Below, one piece after another: positions 18,189-40,713 of a DNA stretch of 50,281 nucleotides. Origin of the DNA: Campylobacteraceae bacterium. Lineage in GTDB: Bacteria > Campylobacterota > Campylobacteria > Campylobacterales > Sulfurovaceae. The notes under the pieces were generated by a model that saw only the letters and a program-made list of their open reading frames with translations, was not told the DNA's origin and searched no databases. The stretch is taken from assembly GCA_027036015.1 (NCBI GenBank), contig JALVTH010000013.1, forward strand, positions 1-50,281, written 5' to 3'. A program made the position numbers and the translations under genes. The stretch's first letter is position 1; each line of letters opens with the position of its first letter.

Positions 18189-20132
18189 ATGAGTAATAGT
18201 TGCAAAAAGGTCTATATTACTACTCCAATTTATTATGTAAACGATGTTCCTCATATTGGTCACGCTTATACAACAATTATAGCTGATACTTTAGCAAGAT
18301 ATTCAAGACTTATAGGGCATGAAACTTTCTTTTTAACAGGAACTGATGAACATGGTCAAAAGATTGAACAAGCTGCAAAACAAAGAGGCAAAAGCCCAAA
18401 AGAGTATGCAGATGAAATTAGTGCAAAATTTAAAAATCTCTGGGATGAATTTGAAATAAGTTATGATAAATTTATCCGAACGACTGATAAAGAGCATGTA
18501 ATTGGTGTGCAAAAAGCCTTTGAAATTATGTATAACAAAGGTGATATCTATAAAGGAATGTATAAAGGACACTATTGCATTAGTTGTGAAACTTTTTTTA
18601 CTGAAACGCAAATTGTTGATGGAGAATTTTGCCCAGATTGTGGGAAACAAACAACGATTGTAGAAGAAGAGAGCTACTTTTTTAAACTCTCAAAATATCA
18701 AGATAAGCTTTTAGCCTGGTATAAAGAAAAACCAAATTGTATTTTACCAAAAACAAGAAGAAACGAAGTTATTCGATTCGTTGAAAATGGTTTAGAAGAT
18801 CTCTCAATTACCAGAACAAGTTTTGATTGGGGTATTAAATTACCAAAATCAATTAATGATCCAAAACATGTTATTTATGTTTGGCTTGATGCACTAATGA
18901 ATTATATTACAGCTTTAGGCTATGGCACAAACGAAGAGAAAATGGACTTTTGGCCAGCAAAAGTGCATTTAATTGGAAAAGATATATTACGTTTTCATGC
19001 AATCTATTGGCCAGCCTTTTTGATGAGTCTTGATTTAGAGCTTCCAAAACATATTGCTGCACATGGTTGGTGGACCAGAAATGGTGAAAAAATGAGTAAA
19101 TCAAAAGGAAATGTCATAAATCCAAAAGAGGTGGCCAATATTTATGGCTTAGAAAATTTTCGATATTTTATGTTACGTGAAGTTCCTTTTGGTGGTGATG
19201 GAGACTTTAGTCAAAAAGCTTTAATGGATCGAATAAATTCCGATTTAGGAAACGATTTGGGTAACCTTTTAAATCGCCTTATTGGAATGAGCTCTAAATA
19301 TAACGAAGGAAAAATCAGCTCTTGTGATGTAAAAAAATTTTTTGCAAAAGAATTAGGAGAAGTTGAGACAATCATTGATTCTTTAGAAGAGTTTGTTTTT
19401 AATATGCAACTTAACAAATATTTAGAAGAACTTTGGAAGCTTTTATCAATTGCCAATAAAGCAATCGATACCTATCAACCTTGGAATTTAATGAAAAATA
19501 ATCAAGAAGATAAAGCATTAGCCCTAAATGGTCTAATAGCTAATATTTTAGCAAAAGTAGCTCTTTTACTACATCCTGTTATGCCAAAAACAACTCAAAA
19601 AATTGCTCACGCCCTTGGATTTGAAATTTCTCCAAACTCATACGATAAATATATCAAACAAAAAGCACTTTTAGAAGATTTTATAATCGAAAAAATTCCA
19701 CCACTTTTCCCTAAAATTGAAAAAGAGTTAATGGCTGAACCATCAAAAACTCAAAAAGAACAAACACCTAAAAAAGAGAGTAAAAAAGAATCTTCAAAAG
19801 AGAGTGGTATTATAACAATTGATGAATTTTTCAAAACAGAACTTAAAATTGGAACGATTCTTGAAGCTAAAGAAGTGCCAAAAAGTAAAAAATTACTCCT
19901 TTTACAAGTAGATTTAGGCGAAGAAAAACCACGCCAAATTGTCGCTGGCATTAAAGAGTGGTATAAGCCGCAAGAACTTATCAATACCCAAGTATGTGTT
20001 GTAGCAAACTTAAAACCTGCTAAACTCATGGGGTATTTAAGCGAAGGAATGCTACTTGCAGCAAAAGATGAAAATGGTCTTTCTCTCCTTCGCCCAGAAA
20101 AACCAAAACAAGCTGGAACAAAAGTTTCATAA
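18189..20132 (+). CDS. metG: Methionyl-tRNA synthetase
   Basis: MetG charges initiator and elongator tRNA-Met. The HIGH-type motif is in NDVPHIGHAYTTII (about 17-30). One zinc-knuckle Cys quartet lies around CISC and CPDC (about 127-150). KMSKSKGN is at about 301-308. A charged linker (Lys/Glu/Ser-rich, about 515-540) joins a C-terminal Trbp111/EMAP-type tRNA-binding OB domain with FKTELKIGTILEAKEVPKSKKLL. It has 647 residues. AAGAAGG lies 6 nt before the ATG. It overlaps the next gene by one base. Confidence 0.97.
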   Translation: MSNSCKKVYITTPIYYVNDVPHIGHAYTTIIADTLARYSRLIGHETFFLTGTDEHGQKIEQAAKQRGKSPKEYADEISAKFKNLWDEFEISYDKFIRTTDKEHVIGVQKAFEIMYNKGDIYKGMYKGHYCISCETFFTETQIVDGEFCPDCGKQTTIVEEESYFFKLSKYQDKLLAWYKEKPNCILPKTRRNEVIRFVENGLEDLSITRTSFDWGIKLPKSINDPKHVIYVWLDALMNYITALGYGTNEEKMDFWPAKVHLIGKDILRFHAIYWPAFLMSLDLELPKHIAAHGWWTRNGEKMSKSKGNVINPKEVANIYGLENFRYFMLREVPFGGDGDFSQKALMDRINSDLGNDLGNLLNRLIGMSSKYNEGKISSCDVKKFFAKELGEVETIIDSLEEFVFNMQLNKYLEELWKLLSIANKAIDTYQPWNLMKNNQEDKALALNGLIANILAKVALLLHPVMPKTTQKIAHALGFEISPNSYDKYIKQKALLEDFIIEKIPPLFPKIEKELMAEPSKTQKEQTPKKESKKESSKESGIITIDEFFKTELKIGTILEAKEVPKSKKLLLLQVDLGEEKPRQIVAGIKEWYKPQELINTQVCVVANLKPAKLMGYLSEGMLLAAKDENGLSLLRPEKPKQAGTKVS

Positions 20133-21193: not shown

Positions 21194-21270
21194 TGGTGGG
21201 TCCTCCGGGACTCGAACCCGGGACCGCTCGGTTATGAGCCGAGAGCTCTAACCAACTGAGCTAAAGACCC
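21194..21270 (-). tRNA. tRNA with CAU anticodon (elongator Met or Ile2)
   Basis: A complete cloverleaf can be drawn: acceptor stem GGGTCTT/AGGACCC (one G-U pair), D arm GCTC/GAGC, anticodon stem CTCGG/CCGAG with loop CTCATAA, variable loop CGGTC, T arm CCGGG/CCCGG with TTCGAGT, discriminator A, and an encoded CCA. The anticodon is CAU. The stem lacks the initiator mismatch at 1-72, so it is not tRNA-fMet. The overall sequence looks closer to tRNA-Ile2, which needs TilS lysidine modification, than to elongator tRNA-Met, but this is not proven. Its 5' 23 bases overlap the rodA coding region on the same strand. Confidence 0.95.
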
Positions 21271-22435
21271 GTAAAGAAGACTTTTTTTTCGCGTCTTTCT
21301 TTTGACCAACCATGTCAATTTTGGTGTCGGAATTATACGGCTTATAAGCTTTAAAAGAGATTAAATTTTCTAAAATTCCAAACATAAATGCAAAAATAAC
21401 AAACGAAGTCCCACCATGACTAAACATAGGAAGCGGAGCTCCAACAACTGGAGCTAAACCAATCACCATATAAATATTTACACCCATATAAACAAAAAAC
21501 AAAATTGCCAAACCACTTGAGATAACAACAATCTGGTAATCATCTTTATAAATATAAGAGATAATTAAAAGATGAATAATAAGTAAAACATAGAGTCCTA
21601 CTACAATTACCATTCCTTTAAAACCAAAACGCTCTCCTAAATAAGCAAATATAAAATCTGTTGTTGCAACCGGTAAAAATTTTAACTGTGTTTGGGTGGC
21701 TTCTTCTTTAGGTTTGCCCTCTTTTCCACCTGAACCTATAGCAATTAAGGCTTGCTGAACTTGATAACTTGGCTTTCCTAAAAAATCTTCGATACGTTTT
21801 TTTTGATAAGGTTTAAGCGCATATTTATAAGCAAGAGGTGTAGCAAATGCAAGAGCAACAACTAACGTAATAACAATTTTCCAATTAATTCCAACGACAA
21901 ATAATACTCCATAAGCTCCAAGCAAAAGCAAAAGAGTCGTTCCTAAATCTGGCTCTTTTAAGATTAAAAGCGAAGGCAATAAAATAATAATGGATAAGAG
22001 GATAAATTGAAATAGCCCATATCCCCTACCTTTTGGCGGCGGGTATTTTGCAACATACCATGCTAAAAAGAGTAAAATAGTTAATTTCATAAATTCTGAA
22101 GGCTGAATTGTAATGCCTCCAGGAAGTGCCAACCACCTTGTTGCACCAAGAATTGTTTTTCCTGCAACCAAAACTGCAAAAAGAAGTATAGAATTAATAA
22201 TATAACTTAAAGGTGCTACAAGCCACAAAAGATAGCGCCAAGGAATGTAAGATGCAATAATAAAAACAAAAAGTGATAAAATATAATAAGCAATTTGTTT
22301 ATGATAGAGTGTTGGGCTCATTTCTTTTATAAGTTTTGTAGAAATTAAAAGTATTGGTAAAATTTGAATAATTAAAAGATAATTAAAATGTTTTGTAAGT
22401 TGTATAATATAATCTAAAATTATTTTAAAAAACAA
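21248..22435 (-). CDS. rodA: Peptidoglycan glycosyltransferase RodA (SEDS family)
   Basis: RodA polymerises glycan strands for side-wall elongation. About ten membrane helices are visible. SEDS motifs are ILGATRWL and IQPSEFMK (about 100-120), LKEPDLGTTLLLL, AIGSGGKEGK and LPVATTDFIFAYLGERFGF in the large loop, and FSHGGTSFV near the end. These favour RodA over FtsW. The start is TTG at 22435 with AAAGG 7 nt upstream; no better start precedes the conserved first helix. The last 20 residues are hydrophilic, unlike the family core, and the TAG stop (21248-21250) lies inside the tRNA gene. An A8 run (21282-21289) lies just before the end. Confidence 0.94.
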   Translation of the reverse strand: MFFKIILDYIIQLTKHFNYLLIIQILPILLISTKLIKEMSPTLYHKQIAYYILSLFVFIIASYIPWRYLLWLVAPLSYIINSILLFAVLVAGKTILGATRWLALPGGITIQPSEFMKLTILLFLAWYVAKYPPPKGRGYGLFQFILLSIIILLPSLLILKEPDLGTTLLLLLGAYGVLFVVGINWKIVITLVVALAFATPLAYKYALKPYQKKRIEDFLGKPSYQVQQALIAIGSGGKEGKPKEEATQTQLKFLPVATTDFIFAYLGERFGFKGMVIVVGLYVLLIIHLLIISYIYKDDYQIVVISSGLAILFFVYMGVNIYMVIGLAPVVGAPLPMFSHGGTSFVIFAFMFGILENLISFKAYKPYNSDTKIDMVGQKKDAKKKSSLRVFSSVG

Positions 22436-40251: not shown

Positions 40252-40713
40252 ATGGCAATTAATATTATTGCACAAAACAAAAAAGCAAGACACAATTATG
40301 AAATTTTAGAAACATATGAAGCTGGTATTGTTTTGCAAGGAAGCGAAGTTAAGGCACTAAGAGCTAGAAGAGCAAATTTAAATGATGCTTTTTGTCGATT
40401 TGTAAAAGGAGAGCTTTTTTTATTCAATGCCCATATTAGTCATTTAGATACAACAAATAAACACTTTAGCAAAGATGAACGCGCTCCAAGAAAACTTTTA
40501 ATGCATAGAAAAGAGCTTGATAAACTTTATGGAAAGGTCTCACAAGAAGGTTTAACGATAGTGCCGCTTAAAATCTATTTTAATGAAAGAAACATTGCAA
40601 AAGTGCAAATTGCCCTTGCAAGAGGAAAAAAACTACACGATAAACGCGAAACACTCAAACGCCGCACTTTAGAGCGCGAAGCCAAAATTGCGATGAAAAA
40701 TAGGAGTTATTAA
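40252..40713 (+). CDS. smpB: SsrA-binding protein SmpB
   Basis: SmpB brings tmRNA to ribosomes stalled on mRNAs that lack a stop codon. Conserved elements are [20 protein letters not shown] (about 8-27), [23 protein letters not shown] and the C-terminal basic tail ([13 protein letters not shown]) that inserts into the mRNA channel. It has 153 residues. It ends 4 nt into the convergent membrane-protein gene. Confidence 0.97.

Follow-up and report, generated by a model that had tools for sequence, protein, structure and literature searches.

In the window, the whole stretch of 50,281 nucleotides of Campylobacterota DNA that was analysed, the frame of the cell-shape gene rodA stays open into the tRNA gene that follows it on the same strand and closes at a stop codon inside that tRNA, an overlap of 23 nt. 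The most probable explanation, in which we place considerable confidence, is that the tRNA possesses its own promoter embedded in rodA, which would keep the pair joined while the rodA stop codon drifts and the overlap is tolerated. In much of the order, the tRNA(CAT) behind rodA would be transcribed from a sigma-70-type promoter whose -10 box, usually accompanied by a -35-like TTGCNT, is written in the last conserved codons of rodA (L-[LI]-A-F-x5-Y-[N/T]). The RodA tail beyond the box is unconserved, and therefore the rodA stop would drift through the short tRNA leader; after loss of the last stop before the tRNA, the frame would close at a stop within it, at nt 8-10, 21-23 or 37-39, the window being the second of these cases. 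The overlap itself, the synteny of the two genes, the conservation of the box down to the wobble positions and its coupling to the rodA-tRNA spacing are observations, from which we infer that the box is an active promoter, that it provides most of the tRNA, and that the overlap reflects drift that is tolerated.

The rodA frame and the tRNA gene

The features of the overlap, all on the minus strand, are as follows.

21248-22435, minus strand: rodA open reading frame, start codon uncertain (TTG at 22435)
21248-21250, minus strand: rodA stop codon TAG, at tRNA nt 21-23, in the D-loop
21194-21270, minus strand: tRNA(CAT) with encoded CCA, found by ARAGORN; called tRNA-Met, more likely tRNA-Ile2
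21282-21289, minus strand: A8 run in the rodA tail
21261-21263, minus strand: TAG at tRNA nt 8-10, the rodA stop in 15 other genomes of the family (10-nt overlap)
21232-21234, minus strand: TAA at tRNA nt 37-39, the rodA stop in two genomes of outgroup family f13 (39-nt overlap)

The earlier note on this DNA had given the rodA frame, the TAG, the tRNA and the 23-nt overlap with coordinates that all proved correct. It had also claimed that a shift of one base in the A8 run would still carry the frame into the tRNA, and this holds as well: read by hand, a run of A7 moves the rodA stop to the TAA at 21232-21234, in the anticodon loop, and a run of A9 moves it to the TAG at 21261-21263, both alternative stops thus lying inside the tRNA.

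The best NCBIfam match of the protein is RodA (TIGR02210, rodA_shape; E 2.6e-87, 293 bits, under the curated cut-off of 336.7). The profile match stops at residue 358 of 395, and the last 37 residues, including the end encoded by the tRNA, are outside the conserved protein. At the other end of the gene (22320-22435), the match to the family model starts before the first ATG, and the sole start listed upstream of that ATG is the TTG at 22435.

Among the tRNAs read in this genome, three have a CAT anticodon: that of the window, L280 on contig C66 and L285 on contig C1, the last of which is assigned as the initiator by its C1-A72 mismatch. The E. coli tRNA-Ile2 and tRNA-Met references used for comparison were confirmed by exact matches annotated as tRNA-Ile and tRNA-Met. 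At the 21 positions at which these two differ, the window tRNA agrees with Ile2 nine times and with Met six times. Likewise, 55 of the 67 rodA-linked tRNAs of the order favour Ile2 at the positions where the E. coli pair differs, and six favour Met. The genome also encodes lysidine synthetase. Comparison of the tRNA with records from E. coli, phages and plasmids failed to separate Met from Ile2, and no close match to it was found elsewhere in the genome. The window tRNA is more likely to be the AUA-reading, lysidine-containing tRNA-Ile2(CAU) than a tRNA-Met. The gene for methionyl-tRNA synthetase, metG, lies on the opposite strand (18189-20132), about 1 kb from the CAT tRNA, and is separated from it by one 327-aa open reading frame without an NCBIfam match.

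In folding of the precursor, the probability of the acceptor stem was 0.21, as opposed to 0.94 for the tRNA alone. The rodA tail of this species (21271-21320) can pair with stretches of each acceptor strand, and it is predicted to compete with the acceptor stem. No weight is placed on this pairing: low values among relatives came mainly from two long-leader genera (g10 and g5), and no clear conservation was seen.

Stop codon position among relatives

The 3' ends of rodA were read in 142 genomes of the family and in 78 outgroup genomes of the order, excluding a divergent second rodA copy in one bin (G131). That bin has two rodA-tRNA loci (L140 and L197) from distinct lineages; the second resembles genus g9, and the bin is probably contaminated. 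The closest named rodA relatives of the family belong to Sulfurovum (Sulfurovum-type Campylobacterota). In nearly all family genomes whose contig is long enough, the tRNA follows rodA directly, one genome (G110) being a clear exception, and the same gene order is kept in several related families.

In the nine other readable species of the window's genus, rodA ends 13-27 nt before the tRNA and no overlap is found; because of this, the window's species has most likely gained the overlap by losing its upstream stop. Overlaps occur elsewhere in genera g3, g4, g5 and g10 of the family and in outgroup families f13 and f21, with overlaps of 1 nt in f4 and f14. Except for the 1-nt cases, all of them end at one of three stops that the tRNA sequence itself provides (nt 8-10, 21-23 and 37-39); within the family, the stop is at nt 8-10 in 15 genomes and at nt 21-23 in three, and in another 14 genomes rodA ends exactly at the tRNA (gap 0). 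In f13, where leaders are very short, rodA overlaps the tRNA in each of the seven genomes for which a tRNA was called, and all three registers are used:

L253, L319-L321, L323, L352 and L353: f13 overlap loci, rodA ending at tRNA nt 8-10, 21-23 or 37-39

Two loci of f18, L332 (G241) and L334 (G219), carry an extra copy of the 5' half of the tRNA between rodA and the full tRNA. Farther downstream in G241, the sequence resembles the start of an integrase gene, which suggests that the tRNA may be an integration site there.

The overlap expected by chance was estimated from composition-preserving shuffles of the rodA tail in 137 family genomes. Overlaps were observed in 18 of the 137, against about 38 expected, and in 7 against 15.8 expected when near-duplicates are collapsed so that each combination of genus and gap counts once; no genome of the family uses the deepest register. 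These counts argue that the overlap is not a maintained trait in the family and, if anything, is mildly avoided. Split by frame, overlaps were seen in 0 of 44, 3 of 46 and 15 of 47 genomes, and after the same collapse in 0, 3 and 4 cases against 4.1, 5.4 and 6.3 expected; avoidance of deep overlap by frame, strong before collapse and weak after it, is only suggestive.

A TATAAT box in the last conserved rodA codons

Upstream of the tRNA, within rodA, we identified an element with the following parts.

21332-21337, minus strand: TATAAT, formed by the rodA codons for Tyr-Asn; proposed -10 box of the tRNA promoter
21355-21360, minus strand: -35 position, TCTCTT in the window, at a 17-nt spacer
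21271-21325, minus strand: predicted tRNA leader, from the start near 21325 expected from the box position to the RNase P site

Transcription of the tRNA would start near 21325, with a leader of about 55 nt and an RNase P cut at 21270. The box occupies the codons for Tyr and for Asn or Thr, which lie 28 and 29 residues past the first residue of the SHGGTS motif. It reads TATAAT in 109 of the 142 family genomes and TATACT in the other 33, and nothing else is found; elsewhere in the same rodA genes, TAT accounts for 66% of Tyr codons, AAT for 75% of Asn codons and ACT for 24% of Thr codons. In a scan of full-length rodA for synonymous conservation in 48 genomes, the segment on these codons ranked first among 350 (z 6.2). 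When every genus is given equal weight, the two wobble positions each have 2.00 bits in the 25 genera with a close tRNA, as opposed to 0.90 and 0.13 bits in the 31 genera used as controls. A -35-like TTGCNT at a 17-nt spacer is present in 120 of the 142 family genomes, and the per-genus comparison showed enrichment of TTGC at the -35 distance (17-nt spacer) and of a T-rich stretch before the box.

The presence of the box follows the distance to the tRNA. It was found in all 14 outgroup genera in which the tRNA lies within 30 nt of rodA, in 3 of 15 with a longer gap and in 4 of 23 in which no tRNA was found, one genus being able to fall in two of these classes. The comparison of the gap of up to 30 nt with the longer gap gives a Fisher p of 1e-5, a value that overstates the case, as do simple p-values generally among related genomes. 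Two of the three long-spacer exceptions (in f18) are those whose spacer contains the additional 5' half of the tRNA. Most long spacers hold a TATAAT-like hexamer of their own, mostly 14-25 nt before the tRNA. A few AT-rich outgroups (f8 and f13g66) have TATAAT without a nearby tRNA, and leaders reach 80-150 nt in g5, g9 and g10.

A scan for promoter and terminator consensus sequences missed the box owing to the degenerate -35 (TCTCTT in the window's genus). Campylobacter promoters without a clear -35 box are known (PMC3656092), and the degenerate -35 seen here fits this. In the simplest reading, the box is the -10 element of the tRNA's own promoter, which would be placed inside rodA codons when there is no other room. 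The dependence of the tRNA on rodA transcripts that the earlier note had implied finds no support, given a promoter-like element whose wobble positions are kept in 25 genera and whose place tracks the spacing of the tRNA. One half of the outcome that the same note had set against its own model, a tRNA promoter in the 3' end of rodA, is in effect predicted by this conservation.

Alternative readings and comparable systems

The main alternative starts from a shared transcript. Because a terminator would not fit into the short gap, rodA transcripts must enter the tRNA, and RNase P cleavage would remove the rodA stop from any transcript that covers it. The machinery for rescue of such mRNAs is present: tmRNA was found on contig C56 of the same genome, and the window encodes its partner:

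40264-40698, plus strand: smpB

In Helicobacter pylori, trans-translation is essential (PMC2584231). It is therefore conceivable that the conflict is a device that yields either rodA mRNA or tRNA, in which RNase P makes non-stop rodA mRNA, tmRNA and SmpB rescue the ribosomes and the level of RodA is tuned thereby. The reality of the overlap, the missing space for a terminator, the presence of tmRNA and SmpB, the overlap in every one of the seven f13 genomes and the proposal of the same model for selB/tRNA-Sec (PMC8124441) all speak for it. However, sister species lack the overlap, its frequency in the family is below chance with the deepest register never used, and a separate tRNA promoter is strongly predicted; we therefore regard this device as quite improbable. 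Of the conflict described in the earlier note, the lack of terminator room and the presence of tmRNA and SmpB stand, but neither a need of the tRNA for rodA transcripts nor a maintained either/or device does, the overlap being absent in the nine readable sister species and rarer than chance in the family. That one transcript can give only one product may hold for read-through transcripts; this limit is not needed for tRNA supply, because the box, if it is a promoter, supplies the tRNA. It is conceivable, though unlikely, that wherever the stop abuts or enters the tRNA, RNase P regularly makes rodA mRNAs without a usable stop, so that a race between ribosome and RNase P would limit RodA and RodA would be a standing, genome-encoded substrate of trans-translation. 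With an embedded promoter supplying the tRNA, RNase P could in principle still cleave read-through rodA transcripts, with tmRNA coming to the rescue; this would be a cost and not a switch by design.

Two further alternatives concern the sequence elements themselves. TATAAT could be kept for the protein, Tyr-Asn/Thr being a RodA motif whose codons simply follow base composition, and outgroups that lack the tRNA indeed often have Tyr at the same site too. Yet both wobble positions are fixed as T, Asn and Thr are exchanged only as AAT and ACT, even at about 50% GC, and once the tRNA lies farther off or is missing, various residues (D, E, R, K, Q, S) follow Tyr and the spacer has a comparable box, all of which makes this reading very unlikely. 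The A8 run, a homopolymer in a metagenome-type assembly of 79 contigs, might conceal an earlier rodA stop through a sequencing or assembly error, but one base fewer or more still leads the frame into the tRNA, and overlaps of the same kind are found in many other genomes; such an error is hardly credible as the explanation.

The closest known case is that of selB. Mukai 2021 described tRNA-Sec genes inside or overlapping selB in Alpha- and Gammaproteobacteria and Nitrospirae, with the stop within the tRNA in some lineages, and proposed the non-stop model (PMC8124441). As in selB/selC, the rodA frame is open into the following tRNA on the same strand, with some stops inside the tRNA and relatives that stop before it. 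In contrast to the selB frame, which often runs through the entire tRNA as far as the following gene, the rodA overlap is shallow, drifts and is coupled to a promoter-like element inside the reading frame. The rodA/tRNA pair thus appears to be an overlap of the selB/selC kind, for which the embedded promoter-like element is the likely reason for close packing.

Internal transcription starts in Campylobacter jejuni (Dugar 2013, PMC3656092) likewise involve promoters inside genes with a TATAAT -10 and a weak or absent -35. The promoter proposed within rodA differs in being predicted from conservation alone, at the codon level over about ten families, and in being tied to the distance of the tRNA. 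Overlaps of reading frames with tRNAs are also named for animal mitochondria (Doublet 2015, as cited in PMC8124441). There too, gene ends abut or overlap tRNAs that are excised by tRNA processing; unlike these, the rodA-linked tRNA appears to have its own promoter. We know of no completion of stop codons by polyadenylation in bacteria. A literature search that covered main texts, few of them from subscription journals, turned up no previous description of rodA overlapping a tRNA or of an embedded tRNA promoter, which is weak evidence of novelty.

If the proposed explanation is right, a tRNA promoter is written within the codons of an unrelated cell-shape gene and can be read from sequence over about ten families, which would explain both why rodA and the tRNA stay together and why the rodA stop wanders. 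The body of a tRNA can supply stops in every frame, and therefore a gene beside a tRNA can lose its own stop. The many natural variants, with the rodA stop before the tRNA, abutting it, or 10, 23 or 39 nt inside it, lend themselves to the question of whether RNase P and translation compete on a single RNA.
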